DNA from: Quisquiliibacterium transsilvanicum
GTDB taxonomy: Bacteria > Pseudomonadota > Gammaproteobacteria > Burkholderiales > Burkholderiaceae_E
Assembly: GCF_014202215.1 (NCBI RefSeq)
Contig: NZ_JACHGB010000001.1
Coordinates: 592,847-656,846, forward strand
Direction of reading: 5' to 3'
Length of the DNA: 64,000 bases
Below are positions 15,755-23,230 of the stretch, piece by piece. Position 1 is the first letter of the stretch; each line of letters begins with the position of its first letter. Below the pieces are notes generated by a model. It did not search any database. It was not told where the DNA came from and saw only the letters and a list, made by a program, of their open reading frames with translations. The position numbers and the translations under genes were made by a program.

Positions 15755-16474
15755 ATGTCCACGTCCGGCAAACACCTCCTGGTCGTCGACGACGACCCCA
15801 AGCTGCGCGAGCTGCTGCGCCGATATCTCGCCGAGAACCAGTTCGAGGTCAGCCTCGCGCAGGACGGTCCCGCAATGAACCGGCTGCTGCAGCGCCAGCC
15901 GGTCGACCTGATCGTCCTCGATCTGATGCTGCCCGGCGAGGACGGGCTGTCGATCGTCCGGCGCCTGCGCGGCGGCGGCGACACCACCCCGGTGATCATG
16001 CTGACCGCCAAGGGCGACGACGTCGACCGCATCGTCGGGCTGGAGATGGGCGCCGACGACTACATCGCCAAGCCCTTCAACCCGCGCGAGCTGCTCGCCC
16101 GGATCCACGCGGTGCTGCGCCGCCAGCCCGCCGCCGACCTGCCGGGCGCGCCCAGCGCGGACGCCGCCGAGGTCGAGTTCGGCGAGTTCAGGCTGAACCT
16201 TGCCCAGCGCACCCTGCATCGCAAGGACGAGCAGATGCCGCTGACCAGCGGCGAGTTCGCGGTGCTCAAGGTGTTCGCCCGGCACCCGAGGGTGCCGCTG
16301 TCGCGCGAGAAGCTGATGATGCTCGCGCGCGGCCGCGAGTACTCCGCGTTCGACCGCAGCCTCGACGTGCAGATCTCCCGGCTGCGCAAGCTGATCGAGG
16401 CCGATCCGCAGCATCCGCGCTACCTCCAGACGGTCTGGGGGGTGGGCTACGTGTTCATCCCGGACGAGCGCTGA
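15755..16474 (+). CDS. ompR: OmpR-type response regulator
   Basis: The 239-residue protein is a DNA-binding response regulator. The receiver domain (about 6-120) has the acidic pocket VVDDD, the phosphoryl-accepting aspartate in VLDLMLPGEDG (D56) and the conserved lysine in YIAKPFNP. The C-terminal winged-helix domain (about 140-235) ends in DVQISRLRKLIE and QTVWGVGYVFIP, as in OmpR. It is followed after 26 bases by the sensor kinase gene. OmpR is the best family name; the regulon here is unknown. Confidence 0.9.
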   Translation: MSTSGKHLLVVDDDPKLRELLRRYLAENQFEVSLAQDGPAMNRLLQRQPVDLIVLDLMLPGEDGLSIVRRLRGGGDTTPVIMLTAKGDDVDRIVGLEMGADDYIAKPFNPRELLARIHAVLRRQPAADLPGAPSADAAEVEFGEFRLNLAQRTLHRKDEQMPLTSGEFAVLKVFARHPRVPLSREKLMMLARGREYSAFDRSLDVQISRLRKLIEADPQHPRYLQTVWGVGYVFIPDER

Positions 16475-16500
16475 GGCAGCGTCCGCCAAAGCCCGCGCAG

Positions 16501-17832
16501 ATGCGGATCAGCCTCTTCTGGCGCACCTTCCTGCTGATCGGCGGGCTGATCGTCTTCAGCCTGGCCGCCAGCCTGCAATTTGTGCGCTCGTTCGAGCGGG
16601 TGCCGCCCGAGCAGCGGCTGGCCTGGGAGATCTCCTCGGTCGTCAACCTGACGCGCTCGGCGCTGATCAGCTCGCAGGGCGAGCGGCGCTGGCAGCTGCT
16701 CGACGAGCTGGCCCGGGAAGAGGACGTGCGCGTGGCTCCGCTGGAGCCGGGCGACCGCGTCGCCCCGCTCCCGGGGCAGGACGAAGCGGAACGGCTGCGC
16801 CTGCGGCTCCAGGGCATCCTCGGCCCCGGCACCCGGATCGCCGGCGCGGTCAACGACGAGCCTGGCCTGTGGGTGAGCTTCGACATCGACGACGATCGCT
16901 ACTGGCTGGCGATGGGCCTGGAGCGCTGGACCCGGCAGTTCGGGCCGCCCTGGTGGCTGATCGCGTCGCTGGCCATCCTGGTGTCCATCCTGGGGGCGAT
17001 GGCGATCAGCCGCCTGGTCAACCGGCCGCTGGCGGCCCTGGCCACGGCCATCGGCCGGATCAGCTCGGGTGCGCCCGCGCCGCCGCTGCCCGAGGACGGC
17101 CCCTCCGAGATCGCCTCGCTCAACCGCCACTTCAACCGGATGGCGAGCGACCTGGCCGAGCTCGAGGCGGACCGGGCGCTTGCGCTGGCCGGCATCTCGC
17201 ACGACCTGCGCACTCCGCTCACGCGCCTGCGCATGGAGATCGAGCTGTCGCGAATGGAGGAGGCGGAGAAGCAGTCGATGAGCGGCGACATCGAGCGCAT
17301 CGACGCGATCGTCGGCAAGTTCGTCGAGTACGCGCGCAGCGGTTCCGGCGATCGCGGTGCGGACGCAGTGGTCGAGGTGGACGTCGCAGCGGCGATCGAC
17401 GGGCTGCGCAGCTCCTGGCTGCCGCGGATCGAGGCCGGCGAAATGGAGCTGGAGGTGCGCGTGCCGGCCGGACTGCGCTGGCGCGGCGACCCGCTCGACC
17501 TGGCCCGCATCGTCTCCAACCTGGTGGAGAACGCCGCGCGCCACGGCCGCAGCGGCGAGGAGACCGCACAGATCTCGATCGCCGCCCGCCGCGAGGCGCA
17601 GACGCTGCGCCTGGAGGTTGCCGACCACGGGCCAGGGGTGCCGCCCGACCAGCTCGAGCGCCTGCTGCGTCCCTTCGCCAGGATCGGCGACGAGCGCAGC
17701 GACCGCGGCGGCAGCGGACTGGGGCTGGCGATCGTCCAGCGGCTGGCCCATCGGCATGGCGGGCGCTGCATCCTGCGCAACCGTGACGGCGGCGGCCTGG
17801 CCGCCACCGTCCTGCTGCCCGATGCGCAATAG
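16501..17832 (+). CDS. envZ: EnvZ-type sensor histidine kinase
   Basis: The 443-residue protein is an inner-membrane histidine kinase paired with the upstream regulator. Membrane segment 1 is at about 8-24, a periplasmic sensor domain runs to about 148, and membrane segment 2 is at about 152-172. A HAMP linker follows. The phospho-accepting histidine lies in AGISHDLRTPLTRLRMEIE. The ATPase domain has the N box NLVENAARHG, the G1 box VADHGPGVP and the G2 box RGGSGLGLAI. The ATG at 16501 opens with RISLFWRTF, as in EnvZ relatives. Confidence 0.9.
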   Translation: MRISLFWRTFLLIGGLIVFSLAASLQFVRSFERVPPEQRLAWEISSVVNLTRSALISSQGERRWQLLDELAREEDVRVAPLEPGDRVAPLPGQDEAERLRLRLQGILGPGTRIAGAVNDEPGLWVSFDIDDDRYWLAMGLERWTRQFGPPWWLIASLAILVSILGAMAISRLVNRPLAALATAIGRISSGAPAPPLPEDGPSEIASLNRHFNRMASDLAELEADRALALAGISHDLRTPLTRLRMEIELSRMEEAEKQSMSGDIERIDAIVGKFVEYARSGSGDRGADAVVEVDVAAAIDGLRSSWLPRIEAGEMELEVRVPAGLRWRGDPLDLARIVSNLVENAARHGRSGEETAQISIAARREAQTLRLEVADHGPGVPPDQLERLLRPFARIGDERSDRGGSGLGLAIVQRLAHRHGGRCILRNRDGGGLAATVLLPDAQ

Positions 17833-17955
17833 CGGAACTCAATCGCCCTGATTGCCTCCTTCAACTGTTCGACAGCGCCGTCGCTCACTAGAATGGACCG
17901 CACCCGGCCTGCGGCCGGTCGATTCCGGACCAAACGAGAGACAGGAGACACAGAG

Positions 17956-18375
17956 ATGCCGAGCCTCAAGGGAACCAGGACCCACCAGAACCTCAAGGAC
18001 GCGTTCGCCGGCGAGAGCCAGGCCAACCGGCGCTACCTCTACTTCGCGAACAAGGCGGACATCGAAGGCCAGCCCGAGGTGGCTGCGCTGTTCCGCTCCA
18101 CCGCCGAAGGCGAGACCGGTCATGCGCACGGTCACCTGGACTACCTGGCGGAGGTCGGCGACCCCGCAACCGACCTGCCGATCGGCAGCTCGGAGAAGAA
18201 CCTGAGGTCGGCGGTGGCCGGCGAGACCCACGAGTACACCGACATGTACCCGGGGATGGCCAAGTCGGCACGCGATGAAGGCTTCGACGAGATCGCCGAC
18301 TGGTTCGAGACGCTGGCCAAGGCCGAGCGCTCACACGCGAACAAGTTCGCCAGGGCCCTCGAAACACTGGGCTGA
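17956..18375 (+). CDS. Rubrerythrin-like diiron protein without rubredoxin domain
   Basis: The 139-residue protein is a single ferritin-like four-helix bundle. The diiron ligands are visible as E20, E53xxH56, E90 with E93, and E124xxH127, the rubrerythrin pattern. The C-terminal rubredoxin domain (two CxxC pairs) of classical rubrerythrin is missing. Such proteins reduce peroxide and need an external electron donor. An AGGAGA ribosome binding site precedes the ATG. The next genes encode an iron-sulfur protein and a DUF3501 protein in the same direction, so the electron donor may be the GlpC/HdrD-like protein. That link is inferred. Confidence 0.9.
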   Translation: MPSLKGTRTHQNLKDAFAGESQANRRYLYFANKADIEGQPEVAALFRSTAEGETGHAHGHLDYLAEVGDPATDLPIGSSEKNLRSAVAGETHEYTDMYPGMAKSARDEGFDEIADWFETLAKAERSHANKFARALETLG

Positions 18376-18376
18376 C

Positions 18377-18399
18377 GCGGCGGGCGGGCCGCCTGCCGC
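18377..18399. other. GC-rich hairpin after the rubrerythrin gene
   Basis: GCGGC-G-GGCGG and CCGCC-T-GCCGC face each other around a single G just after the stop codon. There is no T run, so it is not a clear intrinsic terminator. It could stabilise the rubrerythrin mRNA or mark a processing point. The rest of the 176-base gap shows nothing else recognisable. Confidence 0.35.
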
Positions 18400-18551
18400 G
18401 CAGCGCTCCCGCCCTCACCGGCCGAGCGCAGGCGCGGTCCGCAGCGGCCGGCGCCGCTGCGCGGCGGCGTGCCGCCACGCTCGGCCCGCGCGGCGGGGCC
18501 GCCCAGCTCCCCAGCCCCCAGCCCCTCGCCACCGTTCGCCGAGACGCCGAC

Positions 18552-19910
18552 ATGACCGCAAGAGAAGGTTCGCTCGAAGCCCCCACCCGGCATCCGCTCG
18601 ACTGGAAGAACCCCGAGTTCTACGACGAGAAGTCCTGCTTCGACGAGATGGAGCGGGTCTTCGACATCTGCCACGGCTGCCGCCGCTGCGTCAGCCTGTG
18701 CAACGCATTCCCCACGCTGTTCGACCTGGTCGACGAGAGCTCGACCATGGAGGTCGACGGCGTCGACCGCACGGACTACTGGAAGGTCGTCGACCAGTGC
18801 TACCTGTGCGACGTCTGCTACATGACGAAGTGCCCATACGTGCCTCCGCACCCGTGGAACCTCGACTTCCCGCACCTGATGCTGCGCGGCAAGGCGATCC
18901 AGTTCAGGCAGGGCACGCCCACGCAGTTCCGCGACAAGGCGCTCTCTTCCACCGACCGCAACGGCAAGCTGGCCACCATCCCGATCGTGGTCCAGGTGGT
19001 CAACAAGGCCAAGGAATCGCCCCCGCTGCGCAAGCTTGGCGAGCACATGGTGGGCGTTCACAGGACCGCCTGGCTGCCCGATTTCGCGAGCAGGCCGTTC
19101 CCGCGCAGCGCGGCCGCATCCAGCGCGCACCCGGTGGTGAACGGTGCGCGCTCCCCAGGCAAGGTGGCGGTGTTCGCAACCTGCTACGTCAACTACAACG
19201 AGCCCGGCATCGGCCACGACCTGCTCAAGGTGCTGGACCACAACGCGATCCCCTACGCACTGGTCGAGAAGGAGGCCTGCTGCGGCATGCCCAAGCTCGA
19301 GCTCGGCGACCTGGACTCGGTCGCCGCGCTCAAGGAAAAGAACATCCCGAAACTGGCGGCGCTGGCGCGCGACGGCTGGGCCATCGTCGCCCCCATCCCC
19401 TCGTGCAACCTGATGTTCAAGCAGGAGCTGCCGCTGATGTTCCCGGACGATCCGGATGTCCGGGCGGTGCGGGACGCGATGTTCGATCCCTTCGAGTACC
19501 TCGTGCTGCGCCTGAAGGACGGCCTGCTGAAGACCGATTTCGCCAGAGGGCTGGGCAAGGTCTCGTACCACGTCGCCTGCCACCTGCGCGTGCAGAACGT
19601 CGGGCAGAAGACCCGCGAGATGCTGGAGCTGGTGCCCGGCACGCAGGTCCACACGGTTGAGCGCTGCTCCGGCCATGCGGGCACCTGGGGCGTGAAGAAG
19701 GAATTCCACGAGACCGCGCTGAAGATCGGCCGGCCGGTGTTCCGGAAGATGGGCGAGCATGCTGCGGGCGGAGCGCCGGATTTCATCGCCTCGGACTGCC
19801 AGCTGGGCGGCCACCACATCCAGCAGGGAATGGGGCTCGCCGGCGCGGACGTCAAGGGCAGGCTGCAGCACCCGATCAGCCTGCTGCGAATGGCCTACGG
19901 AATCGACTGA
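18552..19910 (+). CDS. GlpC/HdrD-like iron-sulfur protein with CCG domains
   Basis: This 452-residue cytoplasmic protein belongs to the heterodisulfide reductase/GlpC/LutA-related group. Two [4Fe-4S] motifs lie at the N-terminus: C40xxC43xxC46xxxC50 and C83xxC86xxC89xxxC93. Two CCG-type domains follow. The first has a normal CCGMP (about 242-246). The second reads CSGHAGTWG near 371, with serine in place of the second cysteine, and its downstream CxxC is reduced to one cysteine (DCQLGGHH). It probably moves electrons or holds a cluster, but no substrate is known. It lies between rubrerythrin and DUF3501 genes, a grouping that suggests a shared redox or peroxide-defence role. Confidence 0.85.
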   Translation: MTAREGSLEAPTRHPLDWKNPEFYDEKSCFDEMERVFDICHGCRRCVSLCNAFPTLFDLVDESSTMEVDGVDRTDYWKVVDQCYLCDVCYMTKCPYVPPHPWNLDFPHLMLRGKAIQFRQGTPTQFRDKALSSTDRNGKLATIPIVVQVVNKAKESPPLRKLGEHMVGVHRTAWLPDFASRPFPRSAAASSAHPVVNGARSPGKVAVFATCYVNYNEPGIGHDLLKVLDHNAIPYALVEKEACCGMPKLELGDLDSVAALKEKNIPKLAALARDGWAIVAPIPSCNLMFKQELPLMFPDDPDVRAVRDAMFDPFEYLVLRLKDGLLKTDFARGLGKVSYHVACHLRVQNVGQKTREMLELVPGTQVHTVERCSGHAGTWGVKKEFHETALKIGRPVFRKMGEHAAGGAPDFIASDCQLGGHHIQQGMGLAGADVKGRLQHPISLLRMAYGID

Positions 19911-19926
19911 ACACGGAGACAGGCAG

Positions 19927-20511
19927 ATGCCGCAGATCGAACGCGATTCACTGATGACCCTGGAGGCCTACGCCAGGGCGCGGTCCGAGTTCCGCAGGAA
20001 GGTGCTCGAACACAAGAAACACAGGGCCGTTCACGTCGGCCCGCACGTCACGCTGCTGTTCGAGGACGAGCTCACCGTGCGCTACCAGGTGCAGGAGATG
20101 CTGCGCATCGAAAAGATCTTCGAAGAGGACGGCATCCTCCAGGAACTCGAGGCCTACAACCCGCTGATTCCCGATGGCCGCAACTTCAAGGCCACGATGA
20201 TGATCGAGTACGAGGACGCCGCGGTGCGCCGGACGGAGCTCGGCCGCCTGAAGGGCATCGAAGACCGCGTCTGGGTGCAGGTCGAGGGCGCGCCGAAGGT
20301 GTACGCAATCGCCGACGAGGACCTGGAGCGCGAGAACGAGGAGAAGACCTCGGCGGTGCACTTCCTGCGCTTCGAGCTCACCGAGGACATGGCCAGATCG
20401 CTGAAGTACGGCGTGTCACTGTCGATCGGGGTCGACCACCCCAACTACACCGCGGCGGTGGAGCCGGTGCCGGCCGCGACCCGCGCCGCGCTGGCCGCCG
20501 ACCTCGGCTGA
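19927..20511 (+). CDS. DUF3501 family protein
   Basis: The 194-residue soluble protein matches the DUF3501 pattern as I know it: an N-terminal helix (SLMTLEAYARARSEFRRKVLEHKKHR), then VHVGPHVTLLFEDELTVRYQVQEMLRIEKIFE, then a beta-rich half ending VSLSIGVDHPNY. There is no signal, membrane segment or cysteine motif. It starts 16 bases after the iron-sulfur gene with a GGAGACAGGCAG ribosome binding region, so the two are likely co-expressed. The function is not established; its neighbours tie it to rubrerythrin. Confidence 0.85.
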   Translation: MPQIERDSLMTLEAYARARSEFRRKVLEHKKHRAVHVGPHVTLLFEDELTVRYQVQEMLRIEKIFEEDGILQELEAYNPLIPDGRNFKATMMIEYEDAAVRRTELGRLKGIEDRVWVQVEGAPKVYAIADEDLERENEEKTSAVHFLRFELTEDMARSLKYGVSLSIGVDHPNYTAAVEPVPAATRAALAADLG

Positions 20512-20549
20512 GCGATCGCGCCCCCTCCCCGCGCGCCAAAGCCGCCCCG

Positions 20550-21398
20550 GTGCCCGGCCTCTACGGCTTCGACGCGTACTCCCCGGGCGAGGTTGCCCGG
20601 CGGGTGGAGAACGTCGGCGTCGCCAAGGCGCGGCTGCCGCTGCTGCAGACCGCGCTGCTGGGTGTGCTCGCCGGCGCCTTCATCGGCCTGGGCGCGCTGG
20701 TCTTCACGCTGGTTGCGTCCGACGCCACCCTCGGCTTCGCCGCGTCGCGCCTGCTGGGCGGCCTGTGCTTCTCGCTGGGCCTGATCCTGGTCTCGGTGGC
20801 CGGCGCCGAACTCTTCACCGGCAACAACCTGCTCGCGATGGCCTGGGCGGACCGGCGCATCACCAGCTTCGAACTGCTGCGCAACTGGGCCGTGGTCTGC
20901 ATCGCCAACTTCGCCGGCGCCGCGGGCCTGGCGGTGCTGGTCTGGCTGTCCGGCCACGCGGCGATGAACGCAGGCGCGGTCGGCGATACCGCGGTGCGGA
21001 TCGCCGCGGCCAAGGCCGCCCTGCCCTGGCACCAGGCCTTCTTCCTCGGCGTGCTCTGCAACGTGCTGGTCTGCATGGCCGTGTGGATGGCAATGGCCGC
21101 ACGCAGCGTCGCGGACAAGGTGCTGGCCATCGTGTTCCCGATCACCGCGTTCGTCGCTGCGGGCTTCGAGCACAGCATCGCCAACATGTACTTCATCCCG
21201 CTGGGGATGCTGTTGGTGGAGTCTGGCGCAGTGGCCACACCCGCGGCGAACGCGCCCGGCTGCGCGGGCCTGTTCGGCAACCTGGCGCCGGTGATCGCAG
21301 GCAACCTGGTCGGCGGCAGCGTGCTGGTGGCGCTGGTCTATCACCTGATCTACCGGAAGGCGGCGCCTTCCAGCGAGCTTCCGCAGCCACCCCGCTGA
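20550..21398 (+). CDS. Formate/nitrite transporter family channel
   Basis: The 282-residue inner-membrane protein has six hydrophobic segments and the FNT-family signatures AGAFIGLGALVF, VAGAELFTGNNLL and NVLVCMAVWMA. FNT proteins form pentameric channels for small anions such as formate, nitrite or hydrosulfide. The GTG at 20550 is used; it lies 38 bases after the DUF3501 stop. Sequence alone does not separate FocA, NirC and HSC types. Co-transcription with the rubrerythrin cluster is likely from spacing and direction. It converges with the next gene, 10 bases away. Confidence 0.88.
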   Translation: MPGLYGFDAYSPGEVARRVENVGVAKARLPLLQTALLGVLAGAFIGLGALVFTLVASDATLGFAASRLLGGLCFSLGLILVSVAGAELFTGNNLLAMAWADRRITSFELLRNWAVVCIANFAGAAGLAVLVWLSGHAAMNAGAVGDTAVRIAAAKAALPWHQAFFLGVLCNVLVCMAVWMAMAARSVADKVLAIVFPITAFVAAGFEHSIANMYFIPLGMLLVESGAVATPAANAPGCAGLFGNLAPVIAGNLVGGSVLVALVYHLIYRKAAPSSELPQPPR

Positions 21399-21408
21399 CT
21401 GCGCCGGC

Positions 21409-21693
21409 TTACCAGCCGGCCGCAAGCAGCCCAGCCACCTCCGGATGCCGCCTCGCCCAGGCCCGCACGTAGGAACACATCGGCGCCACCTTCAGCCCCT
21501 CGCGCTGCGCATGCGCGAACACCTCGCGCACCAGCTCGCCCGCGATGCCCTGGCCCTCCAGGATCGGCGCCACCTCGGTATGGACGACGAGCATGGTGTC
21601 GCCGTCCATCCGGTAATCGGCGCGGCACAGGCGCCCCTCGACCTCCGCCTCGAAACGCGAGGCGGCGGGGTTGTGGACGACCCGCACCGTCAC
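21409..21693 (-). CDS. Small GNAT-type acetyltransferase (YidJ-like, Acetyltransf_CG)
   Basis: The 94-residue protein is a minimal GNAT domain: RVVHNPAASRFEAEV, then a YRMDGDTMLVVHTEV strand pair, the acetyl-CoA loop GQGIAGELV near 48-56, and a closing CSYVRAWARRHPE helix. Its substrate is unknown. It lies 16 bases downstream of the TrpB-like gene on the same strand and may share its transcript. Confidence 0.85.
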   Translation of the reverse strand: MTVRVVHNPAASRFEAEVEGRLCRADYRMDGDTMLVVHTEVAPILEGQGIAGELVREVFAHAQREGLKVAPMCSYVRAWARRHPEVAGLLAAGW

Positions 21694-21709: not shown

Positions 21710-23080
<1,371 letters not shown>

Positions 23081-23180
23081 TGGAAGTCTCCTCTGTGATG
23101 GGTCTGGTCGGATGCGCGCACGGCGGAGCGCAGACCGGGGTGCGGAGACTATAGCAAGCGGCGGCGGGGACGGCCGCCCC

Positions 23181-23230
23181 GCGCGGTCACTCGCCGTCAC
23201 TCGCCGTCACTCACGGTCAATCGCCGTCGA
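23181..23230. repeat. 10-base degenerate tandem repeat at the efflux operon end
   Basis: Five 10-base units of the form TCGCCGTCAC run from 23181 to 23230. Units two and three are identical and the others differ at two or three bases. The last units form the final codons and stop of the TolC-like gene. Confidence 0.7.

Follow-up and report, generated by a model that had tools for sequence, protein, structure and literature searches.

A rubrerythrin-RFO-DUF3501 gene trio of Quisquiliibacterium transsilvanicum as a probable peroxide-reductase system

An aerobic-type rubrerythrin lineage that lacks the rubredoxin domain, and whose genes are co-localised with those of a DUF3501 protein and a GlpC-like iron-sulfur protein named RFO, was described by Cardenas et al. 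in 2016 (PMC5114695; this and the other papers are cited for the passages accessible to us). The three genes were found together in 185 genomes among 4461, and RFO was proposed to make up for the lost rubredoxin domain (PMC5114695). The trio was later reported from a protist mitochondrion (PMC7050145), a hot-spring scaffold (PMC7852563) and Acidihalobacter (PMC7760498). Ferriperoxin, a single-domain rubrerythrin of Hydrogenobacter thermophilus, reduces hydrogen peroxide (H2O2) and organic hydroperoxides in vitro when supplied with NADPH and FNR, and aerobic growth ceased once ferriperoxin was lost (PMC3317640). For sulerythrin, the reaction with H2O2 is fast and that with O2 very slow (PMC12851003). 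Here we analyse such a trio in a stretch of 64,000 nucleotides from Quisquiliibacterium transsilvanicum (contig NZ_JACHGB010000001.1), referred to as the window, in which genes for a rubrerythrin (RBR), RFO and a DUF3501 protein are followed by a gene for an FNT (formate/nitrite) channel.

The trio of the window is the ordinary, already known RBR-RFO-DUF3501 system. We think that its three genes probably encode a peroxide-reductase system, in which the diiron site of RBR reduces H2O2, RFO re-reduces that site and DUF3501 acts as adaptor, with induction by peroxide that probably involves OxyR, and with the FNT channel as an unrelated gene. A preliminary description had called the locus a possible uncharacterised redox system. 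The three-gene unit in that proposal stands, but its novelty does not, as the same genes, the electron-donor idea and the name RFO have been in print since 2016 (PMC5114695). The features discussed are:

17829-17865, + strand: OxyR-like element ATAG-N7-CAAT-N7-ATTG-N7-CAAC, agreeing at 15 of 16 specified bases; putative OxyR-binding site
17956-18375, + strand: rubrerythrin (RBR) of the aerobic type, 139 amino acids; diiron four-helix protein without rubredoxin domain
18552-19910, + strand: RFO, GlpC-like iron-sulfur protein, 452 amino acids
19927-20511, + strand: DUF3501 protein, 194 amino acids, no cysteine; predicted structure matches PDB 3fjv only
20550-21398, + strand: FNT channel, 282 amino acids; downstream neighbour, judged to lie outside the system

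Gene calls and Pfam matches (Rubrerythrin, 4.1e-29; CCG, 8.3e-14; DUF3501, 1.1e-75; Form_Nir_trans, 3.7e-74) agree with the four consecutive plus-strand genes that had been proposed. They are separated by gaps of 176, 16 and 38 bp. Neither a terminator-like site nor a sigma-70-like promoter was found on the + strand between 17780 and 21500.

Co-occurrence of the trio and its downstream neighbour

The three genes form a unit. In a phylum sample of 299 genomes with a completeness of 90% or more, DUF3501 occurs in 22. With an RFO model built from 30 sequences, including the window's own, 22 genomes reach at least 653 bits and the next match 192 bits; with an RBR model of 17 sequences, 22 genomes reach at least 258 bits and the next match 166 bits. 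These scans scored up to 5 and up to 13 first-look candidates per genome, respectively, so that a low-ranked copy could escape. The three sets consist of the same 22 genomes, and the genes are adjacent in all of them, with DUF3501 and RFO matches at most 578 bp and RFO and RBR matches at most 305 bp apart. The scattering of DUF3501 and the iron-sulfur gene without rubrerythrin, which the preliminary description had named as the outcome that would speak against a unit, was thus not seen. In a sample of the order, 94 of 200 genomes have DUF3501.

Neighbourhoods were counted in the best 80 loci of the genome_contigs set, 63 of which extend 2.3 kb upstream of DUF3501. The whole trio is present in 57 of these 63 and RBR without RFO in four, and one locus (L081) has neither gene upstream. 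Seven genomes with DUF3501 and no adjacent RFO were tested (those of L075, L078, L081, L090, L099, L105 and L108). RFO was found elsewhere in six of them, as a fragment at a contig end in the case of L108, and an aerobic-type RBR is present in all seven. The genes therefore mostly stay together in a genome even where the operon is broken.

The FNT gene behaves differently. The protein belongs to the FNT family (PF01226, 249.6 bits against a cut-off of 34.6) and stays below the cut-off of the FocA model (221.4 against 290.1 bits). The preliminary description had proposed that the channel could belong to the system; in such a four-gene system it would move a small acid, nitrite or sulfide tied to the reaction. 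As its gene starts 38 bp beyond DUF3501 in the same orientation, it may share a transcript with the trio in this genome. Against such a system stands the absence of an FNT gene from the DNA that follows DUF3501, wherever at least 1 kb of it is available, in all 76 such genome_contigs loci and all 17 such family stretches, one of which holds a second DUF3501 copy. Nor does the presence of the channel track that of DUF3501: in the order sample, 24 of the 94 genomes with DUF3501 have an FNT above its cut-off, as have 36 of the 106 without (Fisher p 0.22), and among those 24 it stands beside the trio in one, the window's own (counted by hand). Besides the window's genome, FNT exceeds its cut-off in 4 of the 26 family members searched, on another contig than DUF3501 in three (G003, G008, G022) and without a DUF3501 match in one (G016). 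Neighbourhood and co-occurrence counts thus reject the channel as a member, and a four-gene system appears very improbable to us. No support was found for the proposed link to a small acid or sulfide; both the element ahead of RBR and array data in the literature indicate peroxide instead. The channel seems to be an unrelated downstream neighbour. Two minus-strand genes converge on it, one for a GNAT-type acetyltransferase (21409-21693) and one for a TrpB-like pyridoxal-phosphate enzyme (21710-23200; NF009057, 728 bits), and in several family stretches a relative of one or of both is found close to the trio.

The upstream element and published expression

The OxyR-like element ends 90 bp before the start codon of RBR and at its 5' end overlaps with the stop codon of the histidine kinase gene that lies upstream; it is the only match in the window's genome at up to two mismatches. 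An alignment of the sequences upstream of RBR in 21 loci revealed four half-sites 11 bp apart, ATAG-N7-CAAT-N7-ATnn-N7-CAAT, which is the spacing of OxyR operators in the E. coli consensus. When 87 distinct RBR upstream regions are scored by their best match, 47 agree at 12 or more of 16 positions and 42 at 13 or more, compared with 0.34% and none of 1740 single-base shuffles, counts that are inflated by related sequences and by a pattern derived partly from the same regions. Ahead of RFO and of DUF3501 the element was matched in 4 of 88 and 3 of 139 regions.

An independent test is provided by ahpC, a standard OxyR target. The element scores 12 or more at 12 of 14 AhpC loci and at none of 16 loci for other peroxiredoxins, and the ahpC upstream region of the window's genome scores 12. 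For one species, ahpC is also stated to be an OxyR target in the literature (PMC4175613). A search for the pattern across 34 whole genomes hit 19 sites in 16 of them, with 20 matches in total, as compared with one match for a reversed control pattern. Eleven sites lie upstream of RBR (that in G338 judged by distance to DUF3501 alone), two before ahpC (G242, G307), one between katA and oxyR (G361) and one near rpoH (G022), whereas four lie near no recognised peroxide gene (G015, G020 and two in G344); gene names around these sites were assigned by reading the sequences. Six trio loci (L032, L035, L039, L052, L069, L074) and L146, a stretch with RFO and DUF3501, encode proteins with 37-42% identity to E. 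coli OxyR, and an oxyR gene is reported beside the cluster in Sideroxydans (PMC7852563). The window's element thus resembles an OxyR-type operator that it shares, in relatives, with ahpC and the katA/oxyR interval, and on the strength of this pattern OxyR probably acts at this site.

An OmpR-type response regulator and a RisS-type histidine kinase with a periplasmic RisS domain are encoded directly upstream of RBR (15755-17832, + strand), and among the 12 family stretches with a trio and at least 2.3 kb of DNA upstream of DUF3501, 10 show the same pair ahead of the trio. Despite this, we prefer OxyR to the two-component system as the dedicated regulator, because the element is also found in loci without that neighbour and before ahpC. 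The two-component system could be a second input to the operon.

A different palindrome, TTAGA-N2..8-TCTA or its mirror form, occurs in 22 of the 40 RBR upstream regions without the OxyR-like element (for example L104, L047 and L154), in none of the 47 regions that have it, and in 1.5% of shuffles. The strict form TTAGA-N5-TCTAA was found 15 times in 1.75 Mb of DNA rich in RBR loci, 14 times within 300 bp upstream of RBR. To us it resembles a Fur/PerR-type box.

Published arrays connect such genes with peroxide. In S. solfataricus exposed to H2O2, the rubrerythrin array signal rose together with its cluster, including a COG0247 gene annotated glpC that rose 5.2-fold (PMC2739297). In B. pseudomallei, H2O2 induced three neighbouring genes together, those of a hypothetical protein, a 'ferredoxin' and rubrerythrin (listed values 3.37, 3.31 and 3.36; PMC4175613); from the gene order, the first two would be DUF3501 and RFO. 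Neither an OxyR operator for this operon nor an assay of RFO or DUF3501 was found in the literature passages accessible to us, and other papers may hold one.

Diiron protein, iron-sulfur protein and DUF3501

RBR is a single-domain protein with no cysteine. The classical rubrerythrin model NF045767 stays below its cut-off (128.9 against 200 bits) and covers positions 1-142 of 194, that is, the diiron domain only. All of 17 aligned RBRs share E20, E53, H56, E90, E93, E124 and H127, which we take to be the diiron ligands from their positions in the family. Full diiron ligands without a rubredoxin domain, as the preliminary description had it, are therefore borne out. The closest solved structures are the rubrerythrins 9onm, 4di0 and 8fuh and sulerythrin 1j30. 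As a separate observation, a Fur-family gene (32% identity to E. coli Fur) adjoins an intermediate-scoring rubrerythrin (166 bits) in L213, from a genome without RFO (G243).

In RFO, the two N-terminal [4Fe-4S] motifs noticed before are C40/C43/C46/C50 (CxxCxxCxxxC) and C83/C86/C89/C94 (CxxCxxCxxxxCP), both invariant in 30 aligned RFOs; Pfam Fer4 matches fall below their cut-offs. Also invariant in this alignment are C211, C243, C244 and C285 of the first CCG domain and C343, C372 and C416 together with H375 of the second. In all 132 distinct near-full-length RFOs the second CCG motif is replaced by C[S/A]GH (CSGH in 120, CAGH in 12), and none of them contains two CCG motifs, whereas the E. 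coli CCG proteins GlpC, GlcF and YkgE all have CCG in the second domain when aligned with RFO. The two [4Fe-4S] motifs and the four cysteines of the first CCG domain are kept in 131-132 of the 132 sequences. RFO has 28-29% identity to E. coli GlpC and stays below the NCBI cut-offs for GlpC (models NF008369 and TIGR03379; 209.9 and 143 bits against cut-offs of 278 and 279.9), while the RFO model gives 758 bits in the window's genome, so that the protein adjoining RBR is GlpC-like yet distinct from GlpC. Its AlphaFold2 model (mean pLDDT 89.0, pTM 0.90) shows a core fold related to electron-transfer proteins of the Hdr and Lut systems, and no solved chain matches by sequence at E 0.01. On these motifs we interpret RFO as an electron carrier of the GlpC kind in which the second CCG site lacks the paired cysteines. 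In two stretches, L036 (5481-5945) and L006 (975-1439), a C-terminal RFO piece alone stands beside an intact DUF3501 gene, without an RBR found in L036; these are possibly decaying or broken loci.

The adjacent DUF3501 protein scores 254 bits with the Pfam model (cut-off 25). Its structure model (mean pLDDT 92.5) has two fold matches at E 0.001 or better, both chains of 3fjv, a structural-genomics DUF3501 protein. Thirteen residues are invariant in 39 DUF3501 sequences (R19, F45, E46, Q54, E57, E73, Y77, P82, T90, R101, F146, F149, H171); as a set they do not suggest a metal site, and a cofactor motif is not apparent. In genome G442, RFO and DUF3501 are fused in one continuous frame of 659 amino acids (L185:5227-7206), from which it follows that the two proteins probably touch; RFO-DUF3501 fusions have also been reported in Nitrosomonas (PMC5114695). 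Long open frames in L140 and L146 that resemble fusions turned out to be artefacts of another reading frame, and in L186 the RFO frame stops ahead of DUF3501. The simplest reading of DUF3501 would be that of an adaptor.

Second DUF3501 copies occur in six genomes (G013, G027, G353, G426, G457, G485), and G003 has a weak partial match. Two of these copies, L178:7522-8133 and L187:6527-7129, are 40% and 39% identical to the window's, and no trio partner was found near them in their stretches; their genomes also carry the usual trio. DUF3501 has no match in phage records and four in plasmid records, each of them on a Burkholderia replicon at least 2.4 Mb long.

Taken together, these features are consistent with a reaction sequence in which the diiron site of RBR would reduce H2O2, and perhaps organic hydroperoxides, to water, as shown for homologues. 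RFO would then re-reduce the diiron site via its [4Fe-4S] clusters and CCG core, in place of rubredoxin; a donor role for the iron-sulfur protein had been put forward in the preliminary description and is plausible, and the same idea is found in PMC5114695. DUF3501, with no cofactor ligands, may hold RFO and RBR together, and the operon would be switched on by peroxide, probably through OxyR. Among 17 neighbour proteins, one per recurring cluster and named by reading, no flavoprotein was recognised, so that RFO likely obtains its electrons from a general donor.

Several observations weigh against this sequence of events or parts of it. No demonstration of electron transfer from RFO was found in the literature passages accessible to us. 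Ferriperoxin was active in vitro with NADPH and FNR alone (PMC3317640), and Thermoproteales have RBR and DUF3501 without RFO (PMC5114695), so that RFO is not always needed. No RFO was found in the genome of L099 (G504), and one of the 63 loci, L036, has its RFO piece and no RBR upstream. The six genomes with a second DUF3501 hold one full RFO and one aerobic-type RBR each, with no matching second copy. As to regulation, 40 of the 87 RBR upstream regions lack the OxyR-like element. S. solfataricus showed three rubrerythrin protein spots, of which one went up under H2O2 and two went down (PMC2739297). The induction in B. pseudomallei is listed as sigma-E dependent (PMC4175613), which means that in this species, at any rate, control involves more than OxyR.

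Ferriperoxin turnover with FNR and the Thermoproteales would also suit a different division of labour, in which RFO and DUF3501 assemble, repair or protect the diiron site and the electrons come from general reductases such as FNR. The lack of a cofactor motif in DUF3501 and the altered second CCG site of RFO point in the same direction, but the near-complete retention of the [4Fe-4S] motifs and first-CCG cysteines is what would be expected for electron transfer, and we consider this assembly role unlikely. Another reading is that the main substrate of RBR is iron, which it would oxidise, or O2, which it would reduce, and not peroxide; RFO would then be a reductase linked to the respiratory chain. 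RBR also matches the ferritin family (Pfam 1.9e-10), and the Hdr and Lut relatives of the RFO core would fit such a link; on the other hand, sulerythrin is rapid with H2O2 and very slow with O2 (PMC12851003), and the element upstream of RBR is common to ahpC and the katA/oxyR interval. We judge this a decidedly weak contender.

We therefore retain the peroxide-reductase reading. A more far-reaching version of it, which we put forward as speculation and would not expect to hold in full, is that RFO represents a distinct CCG reductase class, whose second CCG site has three cysteines and an invariant histidine in place of the paired cysteines of GlpC-type proteins; that RFO and DUF3501 together make up a dedicated route by which electrons reach the diiron site without rubredoxin; and that control over this route was acquired independently by peroxide sensors of unrelated kinds, OxyR in some clades and perhaps a regulator of the Fur/PerR type in others.

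Comparison with described systems

The trio is widespread in aerobic proteobacteria and has been reported from some mitochondria (PMC7050145). Three things make the locus interesting. One is the electron-donor question; the second is the altered CCG site, whose C[S/A]GH hallmark allows RFO to be addressed at the level of single residues; and the third is the regulatory element, which as an OxyR-like sequence points to peroxide as the stress. Contact between RFO and DUF3501 is suggested by their natural fusion. The OxyR-like element, the second palindrome and the C[S/A]GH hallmark appear to be additions, as no mention of them was found in the literature passages accessible to us, and the first and last of these are likewise not mentioned in the accessible passages of PMC5114695.

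At the level of single proteins, sulerythrin (PDB 1j30) is a single-domain rubrerythrin that aligns with the window's RBR over its full length (E 1.9e-55). Ferriperoxin is also a single-domain rubrerythrin like RBR (PMC3317640), but in H. thermophilus, unlike the window, the RFO gene lies apart from the other two (PMC5114695), and the electron donor in the ferriperoxin assay was FNR (PMC3317640). Both CCG domains of RFO resemble in fold LutA/HdrB (PDB 9a6l, an integrative model; 8rwn, 5odc, 7bkb), with seven matches at E 1.0e-7 to 1.3e-5 and TM-scores by target length of 0.62-0.78. These matches are limited to the CCG part and none spans the whole of RFO, whose second CCG site is moreover altered. 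GlpC, subunit C of the anaerobic glycerol-3-phosphate dehydrogenase, has two [4Fe-4S] motifs and two CCG domains as RFO does, but its second CCG domain contains CCG and CETC where RFO has C[S/A]GH and a single cysteine, and the second [4Fe-4S] motif of RFO is one residue longer.

The published aerobic-type system (PMC5114695) is the closest counterpart. As far as its accessible passages go, it shares with the window the same three genes in the same order, an RBR without rubredoxin domain, an RFO of the COG0247/GlpC type and a DUF3501 protein. The window differs from it in the FNT gene that follows in the same direction, an arrangement present in no other locus examined.

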